Assembly: GCF_000224335.1 (NCBI RefSeq)
Contig: NZ_AFXZ01000002.1
Span: forward strand, 310,001-374,000
Source: Bizionia argentinensis JUB59
GTDB taxonomy: Bacteria; Bacteroidota; Bacteroidia; Flavobacteriales; Flavobacteriaceae
DNA length: 64,000 nt
Reading direction: 5' to 3'
Part shown: in pieces, positions 52,522-62,895 of the stretch
How positions within the stretch are numbered: position 1 is the first letter of the stretch
Layout: each line of letters begins with the position of its first letter
Notes under the pieces: generated by a model
Database searches by the model: none
What the model was told of the DNA's origin: nothing
Seen by the model: the letters and a program-made list of their open reading frames with translations, nothing else
Made by a program: the position numbers and the translations under genes

Positions 52522-52539
52522 GTGCAACTATTGTTACAC
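52522..52539 (+). promoter_or_regulatory. GTAAC-N4-GTTAC type operator upstream of cydA
   Basis: GTGCAAC-TATT-GTTACAC: an imperfect palindrome whose core (52524-52537) matches GTAAC-N4-GTTAC at 9 of 10 arm positions. Its centre lies 29.5 bp before the -7 box, i.e. near -41.5, typical of class II CRP/FNR activation. Confidence 0.6.
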
Positions 52540-52559
52540 TTAAAAACACTGATAACTTC

Positions 52560-52567
52560 TAATTTTG
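52560..52567 (+). promoter_or_regulatory. -7 promoter element of cydAB
   Basis: TAATTTTG matches TAnnTTTG exactly and sits inside the inverted repeat AACTTCTA/TAGAAGTT (52554-52561 and 52575-52582), so a second regulator could act there. Confidence 0.5.
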
Positions 52568-52630
52568 CACGTAATAGAAGTTGTTATTTTAAATAGTTGG
52601 AATAAAACAACAAATCAAATTCAAATATAA

Positions 52631-53962
52631 ATGGAGGATATGATCTTTTATGATAGAATGCAATTTGCATTTACTATCACGTTTCATTATTTGTTTCCGC
52701 AATTAACCATGGGTTTATCCTTACTAATTGTCTATTTTAAATGGAAATTTTTAAGAACTAAAATCGATAAATATAATGATGCTGCCATATTTTGGATGAA
52801 AATTTTCGCATTAAATTTCGCTATGGGTGTTGTAACCGGAATCCCCATGGAATTTCAATTTGGAACCAATTGGGCAAAATTTTCGGAACTCACCGGTGGT
52901 ATAATTGGTCAAACCCTTGCCATGGAAGGTATGTTTTCTTTCTTTTTAGAATCCTCCTTTTTAGGTCTATTTCTGTTTGGCGAAAAACTACTTGGCCATA
53001 AATTACACTTTGTTACCGGGTTTTTGGTCTTTCTAGGCTCTTGGGCTAGTGGTTATTTAATACTTGCCACACACTCATGGATGCAATATCCTGTTGGTTA
53101 TGAAATTTTAGAAAACGGTAAATTTGTTCTAAATAATTTTGGTGCCTTATTTTCTAATCCTTGGCTACTTCCCTCCTATTTACATAATCAAGCTGGCTCC
53201 ATGGTAACATCATCATTTGTTATGGCCGGTGTTGGTGCTTTTTACTTGTTGAGTAATAAACATAATGAATTCGGAAAACTTTTTGTAAAAACAGGTGTTA
53301 TTTTCGGTCTAATTTCAAGTTTATTAGTCGCATTTCCTACAGGCGATTTATTAGCTAAAAATGTTGCAGAACATCAACCTGTTGCTTTTGCGGCTATGGA
53401 AGGTATTTTTGAAACAGAAGATGGTGGAGCCGAAATTGTACTAATTGGCCAACCTAACATGTTAGAGAAAAAACTAGACAATAAAATTGCCGTTCCTAAC
53501 ATTTTAAGCTTCTTAACCTACCAGGATTGGAATATGCAAATAAAAGGGCTGAATGAGTTTGATGAAGATGTTCATCCTACTAACGTTCCTGGTTTATATT
53601 ATGCATATCATATTATGGTTGGTTTAGGAACTATTTTTATTGGCTTAATGCTTTTAGCAGCTTTTCAGCTGTTTCGAAAAAAGCTCTACAAAACTACTTG
53701 GATTCTCTGGGCGCTCATGCTTATGATTCCGTTTCCATATATTGCTAATACCACGGGTTGGTACACAGCCGAATTAGGGCGACAGCCTTGGTTAGTATAC
53801 AATTTATTGCGCACGGCCGACGGTGCATCACCAACGGTTTCTTCTGGAAACACATTATTTACTTTACTTGGTTTTATAGGTTTATATCTGCTTTTAGGCA
53901 TGTTGTTTTTAATGTTAGCAGGGAAAATTATTAATAAAGGACCACAACTTAATCAACATTAA
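52631..53962 (+). CDS. cydA: Cytochrome bd ubiquinol/menaquinol oxidase subunit I (CydA)
   Basis: A 443-residue inner-membrane protein with nine helices. His19 in TFHYLFPQLTMG is the high-spin haem ligand, LAMEGMFSFFLESSF gives the conserved glutamates, LPSYLHNQAG the second His, and GRQPWLVYNLLRT the conserved C-terminal motif. It is shorter than E. coli CydA (522), consistent with the short Q-loop class. It reduces O2 with (mena)quinol at low oxygen and resists sulfide and NO, which fits the neighbouring sulfur genes. cydB follows 2 bp later. Confidence 0.95.
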   Translation: MEDMIFYDRMQFAFTITFHYLFPQLTMGLSLLIVYFKWKFLRTKIDKYNDAAIFWMKIFALNFAMGVVTGIPMEFQFGTNWAKFSELTGGIIGQTLAMEGMFSFFLESSFLGLFLFGEKLLGHKLHFVTGFLVFLGSWASGYLILATHSWMQYPVGYEILENGKFVLNNFGALFSNPWLLPSYLHNQAGSMVTSSFVMAGVGAFYLLSNKHNEFGKLFVKTGVIFGLISSLLVAFPTGDLLAKNVAEHQPVAFAAMEGIFETEDGGAEIVLIGQPNMLEKKLDNKIAVPNILSFLTYQDWNMQIKGLNEFDEDVHPTNVPGLYYAYHIMVGLGTIFIGLMLLAAFQLFRKKLYKTTWILWALMLMIPFPYIANTTGWYTAELGRQPWLVYNLLRTADGASPTVSSGNTLFTLLGFIGLYLLLGMLFLMLAGKIINKGPQLNQH

Positions 53963-53964
53963 TT

Positions 53965-55041
53965 ATGGAGTTATTTTGGTATATAGTATTAATGACTATG
54001 CTAGCTATTTACGTCGTTTTAGATGGCTATGATTTTGGTGCAGGAATTATTCATTTATTCTTTGCAAAAACAGAAAAAGATAAAAAAGCAATTACCAATG
54101 CTATTGGACCCTTTTGGGACGCTAATGAAGTTTGGTTAATTGCTGTAGGAGGTGTCTTATTTTTTGCCTTTCCTACTTTGTATGCGTCATCATTTAGTGG
54201 TTTTTATTTACCGCTCATGTTAATTTTGTGGTTACTTATTTTTAGAGCTATTGGTTTAGAGCTACGCGGTCAAATTAAAAACGCCATGTGGGAAGCCATA
54301 TGGGATAAGGCTTTTGGAATAGCCAGTTTATTATTAGCACTATTTTTTGGTGTCGCTTTAGGAAATATTGTAAGAGGTGTAAATTTAGGAAATGTTGTAA
54401 ATGGTGTTTCTACCCATGAAGCGCATTATTTCTTTTTACCGCTTTGGAATTCAACTTTTAGTCCGCAAGCAGAGCAATTAGGAGTTATAGATTGGTTTAC
54501 ATTATTATTAGGGGTAATTGGTGTTGTAGCGCTGACTATCCATGGCGCCAATTGGATTATTTTTAAAACGAATTCAGACCTTAATAAAAAACTTAAAAAA
54601 GTAGTCTTTAATCTGAATATAGTTATGGTGGCTTTAGTTATCACCTCATTATTAGTTTGGCATGTTATAGAGCCTAAACCATTTCATAACTTTATGCAAT
54701 ACCCATGGTTATGGATATTGCCAGTAATTGCTTTAACAGGTTTAATCGGGTTGTTTAAAGTGAAATCTTTCAAAAAAGATGGACATGGTTTTGTTTTTTC
54801 AACCTTATTTCTATTAGGAGGCTTGGCTTCTACGGTAGCTTCAATTTTTCCTAAAGTTTTGCCTTCAACAAATGCTATAAACCCAGATTTAACAATCTAT
54901 AATGTGGCTGCGGATGATTATGGATTAACAGTTGGAGTCTATTGGTTTGCCATTGCCGCCGTTTTAGTGGTTATTTATATGATCATTCAATACAGAGTTT
55001 TTAATGGCAAAATGGACGATGTAGGTTACGGAGACCACTAA
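53965..55041 (+). CDS. cydB: Cytochrome bd oxidase subunit II (CydB)
   Basis: A 358-residue membrane protein with about eight helices. The N-terminal MTMLAIYVVLDGYDFGAG and ITNAIGPFWDANEVWLIAVGG are diagnostic. It partners CydA. Start 2 bp after the cydA stop indicates strict cotranscription. No cydX-like ORF was recognised directly after it; the next gene is a small membrane protein. Confidence 0.95.
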   Translation: MELFWYIVLMTMLAIYVVLDGYDFGAGIIHLFFAKTEKDKKAITNAIGPFWDANEVWLIAVGGVLFFAFPTLYASSFSGFYLPLMLILWLLIFRAIGLELRGQIKNAMWEAIWDKAFGIASLLLALFFGVALGNIVRGVNLGNVVNGVSTHEAHYFFLPLWNSTFSPQAEQLGVIDWFTLLLGVIGVVALTIHGANWIIFKTNSDLNKKLKKVVFNLNIVMVALVITSLLVWHVIEPKPFHNFMQYPWLWILPVIALTGLIGLFKVKSFKKDGHGFVFSTLFLLGGLASTVASIFPKVLPSTNAINPDLTIYNVAADDYGLTVGVYWFAIAAVLVVIYMIIQYRVFNGKMDDVGYGDH

Positions 55042-55058
55042 TTAAAATATTTAAAACC

Positions 55059-55373
55059 ATGACGGGAACTTTAATTTCTTTAATCAGTATTTTCATAGGT
55101 ATTGTTGGTGCTAATCTTATGGGGTATTTCAAAAAGAAATACGCTTTAGGTTTTACGGGAAATACTTTAGTCGGTGTGTTTGGTAGTATTTTACTTGTAA
55201 AGTCTTTTGGAAGAATAGGTTTTAGTCCCTGGGATATTATTTATAATGACGGCTTCAATATTAATTTATTTATAATAAATTGCGTGGTTTCATTTTTAGG
55301 CGGCGCTTTAGGAGTTGTAGTTGTAAAAAAAATAATGAAAAAGTTGAATAAGGCGGACACCCCTAGAGAGTGA
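55059..55373 (+). CDS. Small membrane protein, GlsB/YeaQ-like
   Basis: A 104-residue protein with three hydrophobic helices and many glycines (IGIVGANLMGYF, TGNTLVGVFGSILL, VSFLGGALGVVVV), the pattern of GlsB/YeaQ transglycosylase-associated stress membrane proteins, though longer. It starts 17 bp after cydB and is probably the third gene of the operon. A structural or assembly role for the oxidase is possible but unproven. Confidence 0.65.
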   Translation: MTGTLISLISIFIGIVGANLMGYFKKKYALGFTGNTLVGVFGSILLVKSFGRIGFSPWDIIYNDGFNINLFIINCVVSFLGGALGVVVVKKIMKKLNKADTPRE

Positions 55374-55426
55374 ATAGATTATTTAATTTAAGGGTTGACT
55401 TTCCATTGTGATTAACCAAATTAATT

Positions 55427-55528
55427 ATGGAATTAAAACACATATTTAATTATGAAGCAAAAGGCAGCATGAAACAAAGCTACAATGAGACTCTATTTTA
55501 TAAAAACGTTTATATTGCGTTAAACTAA
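55427..55528 (+). other. Possible 33-codon ORF of unknown meaning
   Basis: An ATG-to-stop frame (MELKHIFNYEAKGSM...) in the 237-bp gap before the TauE gene. No hydrophobic segment, family match or promoter supports it; it could be the eroded start of a former gene. No other element was recognised in this gap. Confidence 0.2.
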
Positions 55529-55610
55529 AAAAAAATAACTTCTTAATAAAACTCATTATACTGCTGACGAATTATTAGCATAACATTTTTAAAATCATAA
55601 ATTACAAGCC

Positions 55611-56420
55611 ATGGAATTAATAGAAGTTTTTGGATATTTAAGCGCATTAGTAATTGGTATCACGCTCGGTCTTATTGGCGGCGGCGGATCTATTTTAGCT
55701 GTTCCAGTATTGGCCTATTTATTTTCTATCGATGAAAAAGCAGCAACAGCCTATTCCCTATTTATTGTTGGCGCCAGCGCTTTAGTTGGTGGTGTAAAAC
55801 AGCACCTAAAAGGTTTTGTAGACTGGAAAACAGCTATAGTTTTTGGTATTCCATCTATAATTGGTGTCTCATTAGTTCGCTTATATGTCGTTCCTGCTTT
55901 ACCTGAATCTTTATTTTATATTGGCGACTTTGAAGTTACCAGACGTATGGCAATGTTCGGTTTTTTTGCTTTCTTAATGATTCCTGCGGCTTTTTCTATG
56001 CTAAAAAAACCAAAAGAAAAACTAGCGGATTTAACTGTTCAAGTTTCTTATAATTATCCTTTAATTATTCTTGAAGGATTAATAGTTGGCGGAATTACTG
56101 GTTTTATTGGAGCCGGCGGTGGTTTTTTAATTATTCCTGCACTTGTTATATTAGCAAAAGTAGAAATGAAGATAGCCATTGGCACATCTTTAATAATTAT
56201 AGCTATTAAATCCCTACTCGGTTTCTTTATTGGCGACGCCTTAACCATGACTATAGATTGGTCTTTTCTAATGCTTTTTACAGGTTTATCCTTTGTTGGA
56301 ATTTTTATTGGTAGTTATTTAAGTAATTTTATTGATGGTAAAAAACTAAAAAAAGGCTTTGGATACTTCATTTTCGTAATGGCTGCCTTTATTTTCTATA
56401 TGGAATTTTTTGTGCAGTAG
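55611..56420 (+). CDS. TauE/SafE family sulfite exporter-like protein
   Basis: A 269-residue protein with about eight helices and the two-repeat TauE/SafE pattern: GLIGGGGSILAVPVLAYL near residue 20 and GFIGAGGGFLIIPALVIL near 165. Members move sulfite, sulfoacetate or other sulfur anions. It directly precedes the rhodanese remnant and the peroxiredoxin and MBL-rhodanese genes, supporting a sulfur role here. Confidence 0.9.
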   Translation: MELIEVFGYLSALVIGITLGLIGGGGSILAVPVLAYLFSIDEKAATAYSLFIVGASALVGGVKQHLKGFVDWKTAIVFGIPSIIGVSLVRLYVVPALPESLFYIGDFEVTRRMAMFGFFAFLMIPAAFSMLKKPKEKLADLTVQVSYNYPLIILEGLIVGGITGFIGAGGGFLIIPALVILAKVEMKIAIGTSLIIIAIKSLLGFFIGDALTMTIDWSFLMLFTGLSFVGIFIGSYLSNFIDGKKLKKGFGYFIFVMAAFIFYMEFFVQ

Positions 56421-56497
56421 AAATAGATGATAAATATCATAACTTTTATGATTTAGAAGTTATATTTTTAATTTGAAGTTATTAAATCATTTTACGT

Positions 56498-56839
56498 ATA
56501 AATTTTTTCAATTCTATTTTTGGAAAAAAAGAAAAACCAAAAGATACCGTTAAACTTCTGGATCCTGCCGATTTTAAAGATGCTACATTAAACCAAAATG
56601 TACAATTAATAGACGTTAGATCGCCTGACGAATACCAGTCTGGACATATTAAAGATGCAAAAAACATCGATTTCTATTCTGGCAAGTTTAATGTTGACTT
56701 TAATAATATTTCAGATCCAAAATTAAAACGCATGCTTGTTTTTAATTGCCAAAAAGAGCATTGGAGATTATGGATGGTTAAAAAATACATACTTCCTTAT
56801 TTATACTGGAACAAAATGCTGAAAGGAAAAGAGATTTAA
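56498..56839 (+). pseudogene. Decayed single-domain rhodanese gene
   Basis: Reading from ATA at 56498, the frame gives a rhodanese N-terminal half typical of Flavobacteria (NFFNSIFGKKEKPKD, QLIDVRSPDEYQSGHIKDA, IDFYSGKF). The start codon appears mutated from ATG to ATA. The catalytic loop, normally CRSGxR, reads CQKEHWR and what follows (LWMVKKYILPYLYW) does not resemble the rest of the domain, so there is probably also an internal deletion or frameshift. It lies 77 bp after the TauE gene. A functional but divergent protein with a non-standard start is the alternative. Confidence 0.65.
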
Positions 56840-56866
56840 AATATTCTATTTTACACTTAAAATGAT

Positions 56867-56906
56867 AAAAGAGGTATGGACTTATTATAAGCCTTTACCT
56901 CTTTTT
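56867..56906 (+). terminator. Terminator after the rhodanese remnant
   Basis: A 10-bp stem AAAAGAGGTA/TACCTCTTTT with a 19-nt loop that can itself pair (CTTA/TAAG), followed by a T-run. It still marks the end of the former TauE-rhodanese transcript. Confidence 0.7.
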
Positions 56907-56949
56907 AGTTATCTAATTTTCGGGCTTTTGTCTTGCTTTTCTGCGCAAA

Positions 56950-56963
56950 GTAACTTATGTTAC
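56950..56963 (+). promoter_or_regulatory. Perfect GTAAC-N4-GTTAC operator upstream of the peroxiredoxin gene
   Basis: GTAAC-TTAT-GTTAC, a perfect palindrome. Its centre (56956.5) is 29.5 bp upstream of the -7-like TATCTTTA (56986-56993), the same spacing as at cydA. Confidence 0.7.
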
Positions 56964-56985
56964 AGTATAGCACTCGACTATAGCT

Positions 56986-56993
56986 TATCTTTA
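56986..56993 (+). promoter_or_regulatory. -7-like element of the peroxiredoxin promoter
   Basis: TATCTTTA matches TAnnTTTG at all but the last position. No -33 TTG is evident, consistent with an activator-dependent promoter. Confidence 0.45.
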
Positions 56994-57029
56994 TAGTAAA
57001 TTTAAAAACAATAATAAAAAACAATAATT

Positions 57030-57692
57030 ATGGAAGCAGATTTAAATATTCAGGAAGTAAACGCTATGCCAAGAATTGGCGATAATGCTCCTGATTTTGA
57101 AGCCGTCACAACTACAGGCAAAATAAAATTTTCAGAATTCGCAATAGATAAGTGGGTTATAATGTTTTCGCATCCAGCGGATTTCACGCCAGTATGCACA
57201 ACAGAGTTAACTGGTTTTGCTAAACGTAAAGGCGAATTTGACGCACTTAATACCCAGCTATTAGGTTTAAGTATTGATAGTATTCATTCCCATTTAGGTT
57301 GGGTTCAAAACGTAAGAGAAAACACAGGCGTTTATTTCGACTTTCCAATTATAGCGGATATCGATATGAAAGTAGCCAAACTTTACGGGATGTTACAACC
57401 TAATGAAAGTGAAACAGCTGCTGTACGTGCGGTATTCTTTATAGATCCGAAGAAAAAAATTCGGTTAGTCATGTATTACCCATTAAACGTTGGTAGAAAT
57501 ATGAATGAAATTTTACGTTCTTTGGAAGCCCTTCAAATTTCAGATAAACATAAAGTTGCCATGCCATTAGATTGGAAAAAAGGTGATAAAGTTATTGTAG
57601 GTCCACCAAAAACTTTAGATGAGTTAAATGCACGATTAGCAGATGATTCTGTTGAAAAAGTAGATTGGTACCTTGCTATGAAAAATATTTAG
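57030..57692 (+). CDS. Peroxiredoxin, Prx6/1-Cys-like
   Basis: A 220-residue thioredoxin-fold peroxidase. The peroxidatic cysteine Cys56 is in HPADFTPVCTTEL; the conserved arginine is in ETAAVRAVFFID; the long C-terminal extension (VAMPLDWKKGD, TLDELNARL) is that of Prx6-type enzymes. It reduces peroxides. ATGs at 57030 and 57066 (MPRIGDNAP) both occur; the longer form is kept because relatives often carry a short N-terminal extension. A strong terminator follows. Confidence 0.9.
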   Translation: MEADLNIQEVNAMPRIGDNAPDFEAVTTTGKIKFSEFAIDKWVIMFSHPADFTPVCTTELTGFAKRKGEFDALNTQLLGLSIDSIHSHLGWVQNVRENTGVYFDFPIIADIDMKVAKLYGMLQPNESETAAVRAVFFIDPKKKIRLVMYYPLNVGRNMNEILRSLEALQISDKHKVAMPLDWKKGDKVIVGPPKTLDELNARLADDSVEKVDWYLAMKNI

Positions 57693-57701
57693 TATATTCA
57701 G

Positions 57702-57734
57702 ATCAGTCTTGATTTTAATTAAATCAAGACTGAT
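57702..57734 (+). terminator. Terminator after the peroxiredoxin gene
   Basis: A 14-bp perfect stem (57702-57715 with 57721-57734), 5-nt loop and following T-run. It separates the peroxiredoxin from the MBL-rhodanese gene. Confidence 0.88.
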
Positions 57735-57760
57735 ATTTTTTTAATTTAACTCCATAACTT

Positions 57761-59104
57761 ATGATAATAAAGCAATTTCAAGACAAACCGTTAGCACATT
57801 ACTCCTACGCTATTATTAGCGAAGGTAAGATGGCGTTGGTAGATCCAGCTAGAAATCCTACGCCCTATTATAAATATGCTGAAGAAAATAATGCTAAAAT
57901 TATAGCGATTTTTGAAACACATCCGCATGCCGATTTTGTGAGTAGTCATTTACAAATACATGAGGAAAAAGGCGCAACAATCTATGTAAGTAAATTGGTT
58001 GATGCCAATTACCCACATCAATCTTTTGATGATGGAGATACTCTTAAAATGGGAAAAATCACATTCTCCGCTATTAATACGCCTGGTCATTCGCCAGACG
58101 GGATTACTATTATGGCTAAAGATGAAAATAATAAACACGCTATGTTTTCTGGAGACACGTTGTTTATTGGCGATGTTGGAAGACCCGATTTACGTGAAAA
58201 AGCGGGTAACATGAGAGCTACCAGAGAGAAATTGGCCAAAAGTATGTACCATACCATCCAAAATAAATTCAACCATTTACCTGATGATACTTTAGTATAT
58301 CCAGCACACGGAGCTGGTTCCTTATGTGGAAAAAACATGAGCACAGATCCATCCAGTACTTTAGGCGAAGAGCGCGCGAGCAATTGGGCTTTCAAAAAAC
58401 AAACAGAAAAAGAGTTTGTCGATACTATTTTAATGGATCAACCTTTTATTCCTTCCTATTTCGGTTATAATGTGGATATAAATAAAACGGGCGCTGAAAA
58501 TTTTGATAAAAATACTAATAGTATTCCTATAAAACTTGAAGTTAAAAGTCTTCCAGAATCAAGTTTGATTATTGATATTAGAGATGAGGCCGATTTCAAA
58601 AAAAATCATCTTAAAGGAAGCATTAATATTATGGCTAGAAATGAAGACGATAAAATAGAAACTTGGTTAGGCTCTATTGTTAATCCTAAAGAAAAGTTTT
58701 ATCTCGTTTTAAATTCTATTAATGATAAAGATGAAATAATTGCGCGTATTGCCAAAATAGGCTACGAAAATCAAATTGAAGCTATTGTTACACTTTCAGA
58801 TAATTCATTACAAAAATCAGAAACATTTGATTTAGAACATTTTAAAAATAATGAGGATGCGTATACTATTATCGATATAAGAAATAAGAGTGAGGTTGCT
58901 GAAGGCAAGATATTTGAAACTGCCATTAATATTCCGCTTAACGAATTACGAGAATCAGAAGAAACGCTTCCAACTAACAAACCTTTTGTTGTGCATTGCG
59001 CCGGCGGTTATAGAAGTGCAGCGGGAAGCAGCATTCTTCAAAAAAATCTTGATTATGCAACGGTTTTTGACTTAAGTGACGCCATAAAAGAATTTCAAGA
59101 TTAA
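57761..59104 (+). CDS. MBL-fold persulfide dioxygenase-like protein fused to two rhodanese domains
   Basis: A 447-residue protein. The N-terminal metallo-beta-lactamase domain (about 1-250) has THPHADFVSSH and AHGAGSLCG, the ETHE1-like pattern with iron ligands. Two rhodanese domains follow: the first (about 265-350; IIDIRDEADFKKNHLKG) has no catalytic cysteine, the second (about 360-447) has VVHCAGGYRSAAGS with Cys and Arg intact. Such fusions oxidise glutathione or other persulfides and transfer sulfane sulfur. It begins 26 bp after the terminator and converges with the tlpA operon. Confidence 0.9.
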   Translation: MIIKQFQDKPLAHYSYAIISEGKMALVDPARNPTPYYKYAEENNAKIIAIFETHPHADFVSSHLQIHEEKGATIYVSKLVDANYPHQSFDDGDTLKMGKITFSAINTPGHSPDGITIMAKDENNKHAMFSGDTLFIGDVGRPDLREKAGNMRATREKLAKSMYHTIQNKFNHLPDDTLVYPAHGAGSLCGKNMSTDPSSTLGEERASNWAFKKQTEKEFVDTILMDQPFIPSYFGYNVDINKTGAENFDKNTNSIPIKLEVKSLPESSLIIDIRDEADFKKNHLKGSINIMARNEDDKIETWLGSIVNPKEKFYLVLNSINDKDEIIARIAKIGYENQIEAIVTLSDNSLQKSETFDLEHFKNNEDAYTIIDIRNKSEVAEGKIFETAINIPLNELRESEETLPTNKPFVVHCAGGYRSAAGSSILQKNLDYATVFDLSDAIKEFQD

Positions 59105-59155
59105 GTTTTGTATGCTCCAAGGATATTAATTAACACTTTATAAAATTATAAATAG

Positions 59156-59190
59156 AAAACCGCATTAGATTAAAAATCTGATGCGGTTTT
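59156..59190. terminator. Bidirectional terminator between MBL-rhodanese and TlpA genes
   Basis: A 16-bp stem with one G-T wobble (59156-59171 with 59175-59190), 3-nt loop, A-run left and T-run right. Confidence 0.87.
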
Positions 59191-59214
59191 TTTTATATAC
59201 TAATTTGAAGATTA

Positions 59215-59841
59215 TTATTTCAAACTCTTCAAAAATTCTTTAAAATCGGGTGCATTATAATCTGCCATTCCTTTGTGTTTTAGTGCTAAATTTCCTTTAG
59301 CGTCAATAACATAGGTTGTTGGTATCGCGGTTGATTCATACATTTTTGGTAATCTGCTAGCTGCTGCATAAATAGGCAAATTATAACCTTTACTTGAATT
59401 AAAAGCTTTGGCTGTTTCAAAATTCTTATCTACGGACAGAATTACAAAAGCTACATCATCCCCTACTTCATCGTACAAGTTTTTAATGCTGGGCATTTCA
59501 GCTATACAAGGCGGACACCAAGTGGCCCAAAAATTTATAAAGATAACTTTACCTTTTAATGCTTCCATAGATGTGATGTTTCCATCTTTATCCATCAGCT
59601 TCAAATTATAATCAGCCTTTATAGCGTTCGTCACCTCCTTACTATCTTTATTTTTGTCTGCATTTTGTATTTCATTTTCCAAATTAAGATTCATAATACC
59701 TGTAGCCAATATACCACGTTGTGCAAAACCAATAACTTCCGCATGCATTCCAGTTGCATAAAGTGTTATAGCAACTACGGCAATGATGCCGTAGTTTAAC
59801 CATGTTTTATTTTTCTTATAAGATGATTTAATATTTTTCAT
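59215..59841 (-). CDS. TlpA-like thiol-disulfide oxidoreductase
   Basis: A 208-residue protein with an N-terminal helix region (about 17-50) as a membrane anchor and a thioredoxin-like domain with the redox motif WATWCPPCIAE (Cys109 and Cys112). It reduces periplasmic disulfides. It is the last gene of the operon, 12 bp after the SoxB-like gene, and might reduce the DsrE or SoxB-like partner. Confidence 0.88.
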   Translation of the reverse strand: MKNIKSSYKKNKTWLNYGIIAVVAITLYATGMHAEVIGFAQRGILATGIMNLNLENEIQNADKNKDSKEVTNAIKADYNLKLMDKDGNITSMEALKGKVIFINFWATWCPPCIAEMPSIKNLYDEVGDDVAFVILSVDKNFETAKAFNSSKGYNLPIYAAASRLPKMYESTAIPTTYVIDAKGNLALKHKGMADYNAPDFKEFLKSLK

Positions 59842-59853
59842 AATCTTTCGGAC

Positions 59854-61515
59854 TTATTGAAATTTATAATCAGTTCCTGGAACCGTCGAAAAAGAATACT
59901 CTCCTAAATAATCGCAATAAGCACGACCATCTAATTTTGGTGAAACTGGTGAATGTACTTTAAGGTATTCTTCTATCACATCATGAATGGTATAATTCAT
60001 TTCTTTCACATCCTTTACATCAGACATTCTACACAAGTTATCAATTGGATCACCAGGACGCACACAAGCAGAAATTGTATAATATTGGTCGTCTTTCATT
60101 TCTTCACCTTTTACTATGATGCTAGAAATACGTTCGCCTCGTGGGTTCTGACTTTTAAAATCGACATCCATTCCAGAGAATCTAACTAACCAACCACCAA
60201 AACGCTCGGTTGGATTTTGCGCAAACGCATTATGCATTTCCTTTTCTAACCAATCCTTAATTTGTTTACCAGTAGCTTTCCCTGTTTTAACATTTTCATT
60301 AACCGGTAGTAAATTCCAAAGGTTTGCTCTTGTAATAGCCGCTGGCTCTCCATTTTCTGGAACCACTGGATTACCAAAACGAAAACCGTTTGAAATAGAA
60401 ATATCAGCTCCAGTTTTCCATCTTGCTGCATCCGTGAATAAATTATCCATTGGATTTTCAACGGTTAAGTAACGATAAAGAGGTGCGTTTGTATAGCCAA
60501 TTATCGTTTCTAAATGATCTTTATAAGGTGCTTTTTCTTGATCTACAAGTGCTTGCATCTGTTTATTGGCTGGGTAAACTTCAGGATCTACATCAATTAA
60601 ATCGTAATCATCGCCTACTAATTTACCTTCAACAAAATGAAGCGTTAATTTTCCAACAAACGAGCCAAATGCACCTGGTTCTGTAACCTTGGCATATTTA
60701 CCTTGAATCATTTCTCGCAGGCGCTCGTGTGTATCATTTCCTAATATATAATCCGCATTTTCTGCAATTGGGCTACTTGCTAATTCTACTTGTTTAAAAA
60801 TTCCAATATGCGTTACCAAGAAAATAACATCTGCTTTTTCTTTAAATTTAATATCATCTACTAATTGCTTCACGCTATTATCTAAACCACTAAAAGCAAT
60901 TCCTTCACTAAAAATCGGGTTTTGTCTTACTGGAACATCTGGATCATTAATACCAATAAAAGCTAAACGAACGCCTTCAATTTCTTTTATGGTATAAGCT
61001 GGAAATAATGGTTCTTTATCTTCGTCGTGGTACATATTCTGAACAATAACTTCCGTATCAAAATCTTCCATAACTTCCATCATGATGTCTTTACCGTAAA
61101 CAACTTCCCAGTTTCCTGGAATGATCACGTCATAACCCATGTTTTTTATGACTTTGGACATTACTCGACCTTGAGATAATGCTGCATAGCCACTACCCTG
61201 TATTAAATCGCCACCATCTATAATAAGCGTTCTATTTGGATTTTTTTTGCGTTCCTCATCAAAAATAGTTTTAATGTTTGCTAAACCACCTCGTTCTTTA
61301 AAAACGATCTCGCCATCTTCCCAAAATAATTCGGGGTGCGAATCTAATTGCCCATGAATATCCGCCGTTTGAAGTATGGTTATACTTATTGTGTCATTTT
61401 TCTTGACCTTGTTTTCTGTCAAGGCATTTCCTTTTTCTGATTTGCAGGAAACTGATAACGTTAGTATTCCTAATAGACCAACGGCTGCTAAAATAGTTTG
61501 TTTAATATTTTTCAT
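59854..61515 (-). CDS. SoxB-like / 5'-nucleotidase-family lipoprotein
   Basis: A 553-residue lipoprotein (lipobox TLSVSC, Cys24). The calcineurin-like domain has TADIHGQLDSH, IIDGGDLIQGSG and the variant GNWEVVYGKD where nucleotidases have GNHE; SoxB has the similar GHWE. GNDTHER and VTHIG follow. The C-terminal domain has SACVRPGDP and VHSPVSPKLDGRA. SoxB cleaves thiosulfate from the SoxYZ carrier; a nucleotidase is the usual annotation. Presence with DsrE, DoxX and TlpA supports a sulfur role. No SoxAX or SoxYZ is in the window. Confidence 0.82.
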   Translation of the reverse strand: MKNIKQTILAAVGLLGILTLSVSCKSEKGNALTENKVKKNDTISITILQTADIHGQLDSHPELFWEDGEIVFKERGGLANIKTIFDEERKKNPNRTLIIDGGDLIQGSGYAALSQGRVMSKVIKNMGYDVIIPGNWEVVYGKDIMMEVMEDFDTEVIVQNMYHDEDKEPLFPAYTIKEIEGVRLAFIGINDPDVPVRQNPIFSEGIAFSGLDNSVKQLVDDIKFKEKADVIFLVTHIGIFKQVELASSPIAENADYILGNDTHERLREMIQGKYAKVTEPGAFGSFVGKLTLHFVEGKLVGDDYDLIDVDPEVYPANKQMQALVDQEKAPYKDHLETIIGYTNAPLYRYLTVENPMDNLFTDAARWKTGADISISNGFRFGNPVVPENGEPAAITRANLWNLLPVNENVKTGKATGKQIKDWLEKEMHNAFAQNPTERFGGWLVRFSGMDVDFKSQNPRGERISSIIVKGEEMKDDQYYTISACVRPGDPIDNLCRMSDVKDVKEMNYTIHDVIEEYLKVHSPVSPKLDGRAYCDYLGEYSFSTVPGTDYKFQ

Positions 61516-61518
61516 AAT

Positions 61519-61941
61519 TTATAGGCTTAAGCTTTTATACCCTTGTTTTTGTAATTGAAAATTGTGTAATATGCCGTTTTCTACGGTATTTATTTTATTT
61601 GGGATTTTTGATTTATCTACTTTAAATTTATTCATCGAGAAACCACATGCTATTAACTCCACTCCTGCTTTTTCGGCTTCACCAATAAAGTTTTTCATTT
61701 TTTCGGGATTTGTAATATCGCCGATATTCCTTCCGCAAATAATGACTTTAAATTGCCCAAAATCGTTACCTTCTTCAGCTTTTAAAGCTTGAGCGGTTAA
61801 AATTATGGGTTGTAATTGTGGGATTTTCTTGGTTAGTACCACATAATTATTTTTACTGGAATCCACTTGCTGCGCCTGAATATCTGTATGAGCAAACAGG
61901 GTCATAATGAATAAGACTGAACTAAAAATGTACGTTTTCAT
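61519..61941 (-). CDS. Exported DsrE-like protein
   Basis: A 140-residue protein with a signal peptide (about residues 1-23) and a DsrE/DsrF-like fold. The cysteines in IICGRN and LIACGFSMNK are positioned like the sulfur-carrying residues of the family. DsrE-like proteins accept or transfer sulfane sulfur; here the protein is periplasmic. It starts 16 bp after the DoxX stop and ends 3 bp before the SoxB-like gene. Confidence 0.83.
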   Translation of the reverse strand: MKTYIFSSVLFIMTLFAHTDIQAQQVDSSKNNYVVLTKKIPQLQPIILTAQALKAEEGNDFGQFKVIICGRNIGDITNPEKMKNFIGEAEKAGVELIACGFSMNKFKVDKSKIPNKINTVENGILHNFQLQKQGYKSLSL

Positions 61942-61957
61942 ATTTATTTATATTGAT

Positions 61958-62356
61958 TTATATTTGAGTGTTTTTGGTGTCGTTGAGTATAAAAAATAGA
62001 AGTCCACCTAGTATTGCTATGTTTTTAAACAGAGGTCCAAGTGATGTAATTTGTCCAACTTGAACCGTTAATGTAATGGGAATTAAAACTGCCACCAGTA
62101 CGATAGCCGCCAATTTAGTTTTATAACCTATGAGAAAAAAGAAACCTGCTGCCAGCATTACTATACCTGATAGAATGACTAGTAATTGAGGTTCACCGAA
62201 AAAATAGGCGAAACCTTTAAAATTAACTTGTTCTATGCGTTGCGCCGTTTTCTCTACGTTTAATAAGTGATTTAATCCCGCCACTAGGAATATACCGCTC
62301 ACCATTATGCGTAAGAGTTGTATGGAACGGCGACTAATTAATATTTTGGTCGTCAT
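61958..62356 (-). CDS. DoxX/DoxD-like membrane protein
   Basis: A 132-residue protein with four helices and GIFLVAGLNHLLNVEK near the N-terminus, the DoxX pattern. DoxD-type proteins form part of thiosulfate:quinone oxidoreductase in Archaea. Its operon (DoxX-DsrE-SoxB-like-TlpA) makes electron transfer from sulfur compounds to menaquinone an attractive guess. It starts 126 bp after the stop of the small exported protein. Confidence 0.8.
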   Translation of the reverse strand: MTTKILISRRSIQLLRIMVSGIFLVAGLNHLLNVEKTAQRIEQVNFKGFAYFFGEPQLLVILSGIVMLAAGFFFLIGYKTKLAAIVLVAVLIPITLTVQVGQITSLGPLFKNIAILGGLLFFILNDTKNTQI

Positions 62357-62482
62357 TATAAATGATGTAAAATGAATTGTTGATATTTCTCAATGTTAGA
62401 ATGCTATAATTCATAAGACTGTGTTTTTACAGAAATAGAATTACAACGAGAGCATTGACTTTTAAATAATTAGTAATAGAAA

Positions 62483-62845
62483 TTAAGCCGTCCGAGGAGG
62501 AGGTGATACGTTATCTAAATAACGGTAACTTAATGAGGACGTGAAATGATCGTCAAAAACAGTAATAAATTCTGCATCTCTAGTTTCCCACGAGAATAAA
62601 TCAAATTGAAATGATGTTGTACAATTAATACTTAAAGTTAGCAATTGCACACTTGCATGATCTAATTGAGAAAAGCTGGCAGTATCATCTGTATTTTTAG
62701 AATTCGTGTGTTTCTTACAAAACGGATTTACCAACATAATATCACCGTTGGATATAAACGTATTCAATCCATTAGCATCTACAGCAAGAAATTTTGCCAT
62801 AAAAATGAATATCAAAAGAGTCGATATGTACGTTTTATTCTTCAC
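62483..62845 (-). CDS. Small exported protein of unknown function
   Basis: A 120-residue protein starting with GTG (no in-frame ATG upstream) with a signal peptide (about 1-24). The mature part has two cysteines (PFCKK and SINCTTS), a SWETRD segment and a Pro-rich end SPPPRTA. It resembles short flavobacterial exported proteins of unknown role. It probably heads the DoxX operon, being directly downstream of the operator and -7 element, although a 126-bp gap follows it. Confidence 0.65.
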   Translation of the reverse strand: MKNKTYISTLLIFIFMAKFLAVDANGLNTFISNGDIMLVNPFCKKHTNSKNTDDTASFSQLDHASVQLLTLSINCTTSFQFDLFSWETRDAEFITVFDDHFTSSLSYRYLDNVSPPPRTA

Positions 62846-62852
62846 GATGGGA

Positions 62853-62860
62853 CAAACATA
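62853..62860 (-). promoter_or_regulatory. -7 element of the exported protein / SoxB-like operon
   Basis: TATGTTTG on the minus strand matches TAnnTTTG. It predicts a very short leader before the GTG start at 62845. Confidence 0.5.
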
Positions 62861-62881
62861 AGAAAAGAATAGGCTCTATTT

Positions 62882-62895
62882 GTAACCTTTGTTAC
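62882..62895 (-). promoter_or_regulatory. Perfect GTAAC-N4-GTTAC operator of the SoxB-like operon
   Basis: Reads GTAAC-AAAG-GTTAC on the minus strand. Its centre (62888.5) lies 28.5 bp upstream of the -7 element at 62860-62853, within 1 bp of the spacing at cydA and the peroxiredoxin gene. Confidence 0.7.

Follow-up and report, generated by a model that had tools for sequence, protein, structure and literature searches.

What connects a respiratory oxidase, a peroxiredoxin and a group of sulfur genes in one stretch of a flavobacterial genome? The question is raised by 64,000 nucleotides of Bizionia argentinensis JUB59 DNA (contig NZ_AFXZ01000002.1, positions 310,001 to 374,000; this whole stretch is called the window here), in which the palindrome GTAAC-N4-GTTAC recurs upstream of cydA, of a peroxiredoxin gene and of an operon containing DoxX, DsrE-like, SoxB-like and TlpA-like genes. 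A preliminary description of this DNA had attributed the three copies to one CRP/FNR-superfamily regulator coordinating low-oxygen respiration, peroxide defence and periplasmic sulfur oxidation. Sequence comparison now points to another signal for such a regulator: the palindromes are probably operators of class II type belonging to a single reactive-sulfur regulon, activated by a 210-amino acid (aa) Crp/Fnr protein that would respond to persulfide or polysulfide through Cys77, Cys83 and Cys84.

Operator, promoter geometry and targets

The perfect operator GTAACTTATGTTAC (56950..56963, + strand), recovered in both window and genome motif scans, lies upstream of a gene pair encoding the peroxiredoxin and a persulfide dioxygenase (PDO)-like protein. 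Its -7 box, TATCTTTA (56986..56993, +), starts 29.5 bp past the operator centre in the direction of the peroxiredoxin gene. A second perfect operator, GTAACAAAGGTTAC (62882..62895, -), precedes the operon for an exported protein, DoxX and the DsrE-like, SoxB-like and TlpA-like proteins, and the box TATGTTTG (62853..62860, -) follows its centre by 28.5 bp toward the exported protein and DoxX. Upstream of cydAB the operator reads GCAAC-N4-GTTAC (52524..52537, +), one mismatch both in the motif scan and in the full operator-plus-promoter pattern applied to the genome; here the box TAATTTTG (52560..52567, +) starts 29.5 bp past the centre, toward cydA. The boxes of all three operators share the consensus TAnnTTT[G/A]. 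The coordinates, mismatch counts and centre-to-box distances of the preliminary description were all reproduced. Its assertion that such geometry is unlikely by chance holds for site and box together, not for motif counts alone: the palindrome is barely enriched in the window (27 matches when two mismatches are allowed, against 24.2 in shuffles), whereas the exact pattern operator-N22-TAnnTTTR has seven matches in the 3.28 Mb genome (70 contigs), for 0.015 expected from composition.

Ten perfect operators occur genome-wide, compared with 5 for a reversed control and about 3.5 expected by composition. Nine of them have a box at 28.5 or 29.5, including two with 21-nt spacing (window position 62882 and C4:156372), and these nine face sulfur, RND-efflux or, in one case, fatty-acid-hydroxylase-like genes. 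Operators with up to one mismatch number 103, against 146 for the reversed control, so one-mismatch sites lacking the promoter geometry are treated as background.

Three of the perfect sites lie on contig C42: C42:25052 upstream of a PDO-like rhodanese fusion, C42:26591 upstream of a rhodanese gene, and C42:30617 between a fatty-acid-hydroxylase-like gene and YeeE/YedE. C4:31208 precedes a gene for a DsrE-like protein, C69:366950 and C69:372882 are the window's peroxiredoxin and DoxX operon sites, and C69:375516, just past the window end at window coordinate 65516, precedes an SQR-like flavoprotein gene. C4:156372 stands upstream of an RND operon, presumably of metal type by its likeness, and C2:10290 upstream of a TolC-RND operon. 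The tenth, C4:102992, is inside a TonB-receptor-like gene, has no box on either strand and is not taken as a target. One-mismatch operators with the geometry add cydA, a Thioredoxin_9 protein (C4:191779) and C58:46750; the last, some 400 bp away from the nearby receptor-like gene, was dropped as a target. The SQR-like protein scores below the NCBIfam SQR cut-off (53.8 versus 525 bits), and the window's SoxB-like protein fails the SoxB model TIGR04486 (261.5 bits against a cut-off of 550); both are therefore named only by likeness. On account of the latter score, periplasmic sulfur oxidation is not established as a coordinated function, and this part of the preliminary description is weaker than claimed.

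The operator was followed through the best 80 of 589 relatives' loci (flanks of up to 10 kb, named genomes), from genera that include Hanstruepera, Tamlana, Maribacter, Aequorivita, Aquimarina and Cellulophaga. Genes were called as the longest ATG-initiated open frames, hence some intergenic sites are scored as intragenic. Perfect operators are present in 78 of the 80 loci and number 235, of which 227 are intergenic. When the half-site letters are rearranged, the 59 alternatives yield on average 1.46 sites (0.39 intergenic), ATGAC leading with 13 intergenic sites; among spacer lengths of 0-12, none except 4 gives more than three sites. Of 255 gene-facing sides, 169 have the box at exactly 29.5, the next commonest offset accounting for 6; on sides facing away from genes the corresponding counts are 15 and 9. 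A logo drawn from the 195 of 235 sites for which just one side has a gene no more than 250 bp away contains the operator, a weak TG behind it and the -7 box, while the full -33 TTTG is absent.

Sulfur genes predominate among the named targets on these 255 gene-facing sides: PDO-rhodanese fusions (49), TSUP (37), YeeE (22), SQR-like (16) and rhodanese (8). Further targets are fatty-acid-hydroxylase-like genes (15), the regulator (9), peroxiredoxin (9) and cytochrome-c-like genes (8), followed by the window-type PDO and CydA (5 each), TolC and RND leader genes (3 each) and HMA (1). The 65 others include DUF983 genes upstream of the regulator, a sulfite-oxidase-like enzyme and, as we take them to be by likeness, SulP transporters and SQR-type flavoproteins. 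Viewed from the genes, a site lies within 250 bp of 37 of 47 TSUP, 49 of 70 PDO-rhodanese, 15 of 18 SQR-like and 9 of 13 peroxiredoxin genes. A separate operator for each neighbouring sulfur gene was considered and rejected, as no site stands directly upstream of the TlpA (0/2), TPMT (0/12) or thioredoxin (0/6) genes.

Orthologues of the window targets were compared in 30 genomes, 22 with the regulator described below and 8 lacking it. Conservation of the upstream sites holds for most peroxiredoxins: among 13 matches in 11 genomes, 10 have a site (at most one mismatch) no more than 80 bp from the ATG, and 8 of these 10 have the box at 29.5. Among CydA genes, site and 29.5 box accompany two of three close homologues. 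In another genus (L171:4600-4655) a SoxB-like operon is preceded by two operators 22 bp apart, one perfect and one with a single mismatch, the latter being nearer the gene and holding the 29.5 position. The eight genomes lacking the regulator contain one CydA match, which has no site, and no peroxiredoxin or SoxB match at the threshold.

Two further groups of targets recur. Perfect operators with promoter geometry stand at both RND operons (C4:156372 and C2:10290), a hint that products of sulfur stress, or metals with sulfide, may be exported. The fatty-acid-hydroxylase family (PF04116) also supplies a recurrent target, represented by L022:12665-13540 (-) and by 21 genes like it in L067-L146; box geometry is found on 13 of 15 sides facing such a gene, compared with 5 of 22 facing YeeE.

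The candidate Crp/Fnr regulator and its recognition helix

Six proteins of the genome match PF00027 in a profile search. One of them, a 210-aa protein encoded outside the window (C42:23534-24166), is the candidate regulator: its gene is followed directly by a TSUP gene and the three operators of that contig, and PDO and rhodanese genes adjoin. Matches to PF00027 (39.6 bits) and PF13545 (34.4 bits), both above cut-off, place it in the CRP/FNR superfamily. An orthologue 80% identical to it is predicted to have the CRP fold (mean pLDDT 83), and the model matches CRP/FNR structures. The protein fails both the NCBIfam Fnr model (20.9 versus 228 bits) and the CRP model (51.6 versus 266 bits), and control by cAMP was rejected on the latter score. 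Flavobacteriales CRP/FNR proteins have been tentatively assigned to MalR in the available text of one study (PMC8510549).

Homologues of the regulator occur in 103 of 120 sampled family genomes (E<=1e-20, own genome counted) and in 149 of 247 class genomes (E<=1e-25). A perfect site lies within about 1.5 kb of the homologue in 23 of 30 family loci, again counting the own genome, within 600 bp upstream of it in 33 of 79 relatives, and at most 150 bp past its stop codon in 60 of 80 loci. A DUF983 gene (L101:9604-9990 and similar) often precedes the regulator and is itself preceded by operator and box, which suggests that a DUF983-regulator operon is autoregulated in part of the family. Perfect sites also follow the regulator between genomes: their density is 1.96 per Mb in genomes with an orthologue (E<=1e-60, n=95), 0.69 in those with only weak matches (n=8) and 0.77 in those with none (n=17). 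The difference (Mann-Whitney P 2e-10) is confounded by shared ancestry and genome reduction, and the test pooled the 8 weak-match with the 17 no-match genomes at a split of 1e-60 chosen after the list was seen. Relatedness of loci by descent likewise means that the P values given here overstate significance and are indicative only. The earlier proposal of one CRP/FNR-superfamily regulator with one operator and cyd, peroxiredoxin and sulfur targets is supported by these comparisons, and there is good comparative evidence for identifying that regulator with the 210-aa protein.

A closer link between operator and protein comes from the recognition helix. Val183, the residue matching CRP Glu181, is invariant in sets of 20 and 40 orthologues, and the position holds Val or Glu in 61 wider rows. 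In a wider set of 60 loci, hand-picked for spread over families and all outside the window's family by their labels, 35 have Val and 25 have Glu. Perfect GTAAC sites occur in 17 of the 35 Val loci (10 of 35 when only intergenic sites are counted), compared with none of the 25 Glu loci (Fisher P 1.7e-5, all sites). The degenerate palindrome GTRAY-N4-RTYAC, placed 21-23 nt before a box, gives 17 sites in Val loci, 13 of them with A/T at the key pair. In Glu loci it gives seven sites, each with one or more G there and none A/T-type (P 0.001), for shuffle averages of 0.07 (Val) and 0.03 (Glu). In L183, L209, L212, L213, L217 and L229, homologues with Glu at this position are accompanied by palindromes that are GTGA-type or hybrid and keep the promoter distance; the case for a GTGA-type operator of Glu183 regulators has only seven promoter-placed sites behind it. 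The pattern matches a published correlation between residue E181 and the operator base (PMC1274295, available text). Helix and operator co-vary, and therefore the operator is tied to this protein and not just to some Crp/Fnr paralogue. In this Val/Glu switch, regulator and operator have clearly evolved together.

Signal, mechanism and alternatives

The regulator has only three cysteines, at 77, 83 and 84. The motif TC[AS]MTxxCC is present in 77 of 80 relatives' regulators, exactly three cysteines in 76 of 80, and Cys77 in all 60 wider rows that have a residue there (60/61, the other being a gap). By alignment to CRP, this stretch presumably replaces the phosphate-binding cassette in which cAMP sits. 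Confidence in the predicted model is lowest at the cysteine loop, with block means of 62 and 58 over residues 71-90 and values under 50 for 79-81, too low for any claim about the arrangement of the loop. The best Protein Data Bank (PDB) sequence match (E 2e-14) and first Foldseek match is PDB 3dv8, a Eubacterium rectale Crp/Fnr protein of unknown function, about 23% identical to the regulator, which shares the Cys at position 77 and one near 83/84. Because the cysteines are conserved and the targets make, move and destroy persulfides, we infer most simply that the regulator is a persulfide or polysulfide sensor. An increase of Bacteroidota sqr and pdo transcripts on addition of sulfide to sediment fits this reading; the word 'regulator' is absent from the main text of that report as available (PMC12345210).

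In the mechanism that best explains these features, a dimer of the regulator would use Arg182, Val183 and Arg187 of its recognition helix to bind GTAAC-N4-GTTAC at a centre near -41.5. In that position it would overlap and replace the -33 element and recruit RNA polymerase to TAnnTTTG promoters, and so act as an activator. The class II position near -41.5, proposed in the preliminary description, agrees with the box geometry; it depends on comparison of sequences and on putative start sites, the -7 box spanning -12 to -5 in a flavobacterial map of transcription start sites (PMC9723704, available text). The activated operons would encode the SQR-like, PDO-rhodanese, rhodanese, DsrE-like, YeeE/YedE, peroxiredoxin and RND-efflux proteins. 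In part of the family cydAB would be switched on too, since cytochrome bd could go on respiring in sulfide. The signal would most likely be persulfide or polysulfide arising from sulfide oxidation and read by Cys77, Cys83 and Cys84 where CRP holds cAMP. Operator, geometry, targets, regulator linkage, co-variation with the helix and cysteine conservation can be read off the genomes directly; binding, activation, signal and cysteine chemistry are what we infer from them.

Several observations weigh against this reading. Control of cydA is patchy: a perfect site lies within 250 bp of only 4 of 11 CydA genes in the 80 loci, and in the 30 genomes a site with at most one mismatch plus the 29.5 box is found at 5 of 11 CydA homologues, the other 6 lacking it. 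SoxB-like matches occur in only 2 of the 30 genomes, with a perfect site before one of the two operons. The box is missing on 17 of 22 YeeE-facing sides in relatives, and at C42:30617 it faces the divergent fatty-acid-hydroxylase-like gene, not YeeE. A Crp/Fnr gene associated with the operator, as the preliminary description anticipated, was found beside three sites, but the 6.5 kb read upstream of it in the own genome hold no perfect one. The operator-plus-promoter pattern with up to two mismatches (17 matches) is not clearly above the 12 of the reversed control, a total over all matches with up to two mismatches given without breakdown by mismatch number. Outside the family only about half of the Val loci show the site. 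Cys83 is found in 50 and Cys84 in 39 of 61 wider rows, and as they are absent from 11 and 22 rows, respectively, the three-cysteine scheme cannot hold for all homologues.

The same regulator and regulon might, through the same cysteines, answer to thiosulfate, sulfite, sulfide itself or general thiol or peroxide stress. We think this rather unlikely. It draws on the YeeE/YedE and TSUP transport genes and sulfite-oxidase-like genes among the targets, and on peroxiredoxin and RND efflux, which are broader stress genes. However, the commonest named target is the PDO-rhodanese fusion, and SqrR, CstR and FisR, the cysteine sensors of such operons, read persulfides according to the available text of a 2022 review (PMC9774590).

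Repression from these sites, in place of the activation proposed above, is improbable. An operator covering the -33 region would suit a repressor, but on most gene-facing sides the distance from centre to box is fixed at 29.5 bp and the full -33 TTTG is absent, as would be expected of class II activation.

An FNR-type regulon, in which an oxygen-sensing CRP/FNR protein turns on cytochrome bd and the sulfur genes, is a slim prospect. The class II geometry suits FNR-type activation, cydA is a classic low-oxygen target, sulfide and low oxygen co-occur in sediments, and one SQR-like gene in L105 is preceded by both this operator and a second palindrome. FNR, however, uses cysteines for its [4Fe-4S] cluster, an N-terminal group plus one more, whereas the regulator has only Cys77, Cys83 and Cys84 and thus no N-terminal Fe-S ligands; the Fnr model also failed. 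The second palindrome, ATGAC/CTGAC-N4-GTCAT, has the same 29.5 geometry; it precedes cbb3-type genes in some relatives and is found elsewhere in the own genome, not at cyd. In four Maribacter loci ATGAC-N4-GTCAT precedes a 732-aa gene that we take to be a cbb3-type oxidase, and a fifth locus of that set has palindrome and box with no gene start within 400 bp (sites at L093:190, L095:236, L097:164, L101:223 and L121:625). Altogether 15 ATGAC-N4-GTCAT palindromes precede various genes. CTGAC/ATGAC variants with the geometry occur at six places in the own genome (C20:18404, 19051, 38053 and 47247, C58:115403 and C62:95372; none in the control), none of them at cyd, and neither of the window's two one-mismatch copies is near cyd. 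A different paralogue (L016), with CxxC near its N-terminus, adjoins genes that we likewise take to be cbb3-type. These bacteria probably use ATGAC/CTGAC-N4-GTCAT as their FNR-type operator for low oxygen, and the low-oxygen label of the preliminary description found no support. The presence of cytochrome bd in a sulfur regulon has an explanation of its own, because bd oxidases withstand sulfide whereas the heme-copper bo3 oxidase is stopped by it (PMC4815019, available text). Contig C20 carries four CTGAC sites and also encodes a 357-aa protein (C20:48548; L017:1162-2235) that appears to combine a response-regulator receiver, recognised from the sequence itself, with a Crp/Fnr-like domain and a helix-turn-helix.

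Membership in HcpR2, an FNR-like nitric oxide and nitrosative-stress regulator of the same superfamily (Bacteroides and others), is least probable of all and was rejected: its published operator GTAACnnnnGTTAC is identical in consensus (PMC1274295, available text), but HcpR2 controls hcp, for which this genome has no PF03063 match, and has Pro where the regulator has Val183 at the position of CRP Glu181, a comparison made with the published description and no aligned HcpR2, while the targets here are mostly sulfur genes.

Genes of the window and related systems

The first target, cydA (52631..53962, +), encodes a short, 443-aa cytochrome bd subunit I whose best model, PRK15097, scores 254 bits, under the cut-off of 968. 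The open frame immediately downstream (53965..55041, +) is cydB-like, to judge by the layout. A TauE/SafE family (TSUP) exporter gene follows (55611..56420, +; PF01925), a paralogue of the TSUP gene adjoining the regulator on C42; the window scan found no perfect operator of its own. Behind the operator at 56950..56963 lie the genes for a 1-Cys-type peroxiredoxin (57030..57692, +; PF10417; NF009668 285 bits, cut-off 211) and for a protein with metallo-beta-lactamase fold and rhodanese domains (57761..59104, +; PF00753, PF00581), PDO-like by inferred function. The third operon, on the minus strand, begins with a small exported protein (62483..62845; its ATG version starts at 62800) lacking a Pfam match and continues with a DoxX family membrane protein (61958..62356; PF07681). 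It proceeds to an exported protein (61519..61941) with no Pfam match at E 0.001, presumably DsrE-like as an earlier reader named it, the SoxB-like/5'-nucleotidase lipoprotein (59854..61515) and a TlpA-like thiol-disulfide protein (59215..59841; PF08534/PF00578).

The regulator shares with E. coli-type FNR and CRP the fold, the recognition-helix arginines and, putatively, the class II position; it differs from them in lacking Fe-S cysteines, in having a Cys segment for the cAMP-holding stretch and in having Val for Glu in the helix. Most reviewed persulfide regulators come from other phyla, and CstR is a repressor. SqrR/BigR (ArsR), CstR (CsoR) and FisR (sigma-54) regulate sulfide-oxidation and PDO operons by cysteine persulfide sensing (PMC9774590, PMC7315123), much as is proposed here. 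SqrR and BigR are repressors and FisR needs sigma-54, whereas the regulator here is an unrelated Crp/Fnr-fold protein at putative sigma-A-type promoters. The dedicated persulfide regulators of the 2022 review are ArsR, CsoR and sigma-54 proteins, with 'Crp' appearing only in reference titles of its available text (PMC9774590). An Acinetobacter baumannii Crp protein is reported as persulfidated (PMC7315123, available text). Among the papers listed in literature searches, judged by title or abstract opening, no Crp/Fnr sulfide or persulfide regulator in Bacteroidota and no account of how Bacteroidota sense sulfide were found. What appears to be new is a cysteine-bearing Crp/Fnr protein linked to sulfide and persulfide defence, the operator sequence being already known.

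Bacteroidota are abundant in sulfidic sediments and guts. On a broader reading, which we hold to be evenly balanced, the regulator would represent a Bacteroidota-wide Crp/Fnr subfamily in which a cyclic-nucleotide pocket became a cysteine persulfide sensor and which serves as the phylum's main sulfide/persulfide activator; it would also couple RND efflux and sulfide-proof respiration to that defence, and the Val/Glu exchange would reset the operator from GTAAC to GTGA-type. Within the family itself, defence against sulfide and persulfide, and in some members also a sulfide-proof oxidase, appears to be switched on via one conserved operator. With a candidate regulator, a 14-bp operator, a fixed promoter geometry and a list of targets, the question becomes directly testable. 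Cytochrome bd in the regulon would tie sulfide detoxification to sulfide-resistant respiration.

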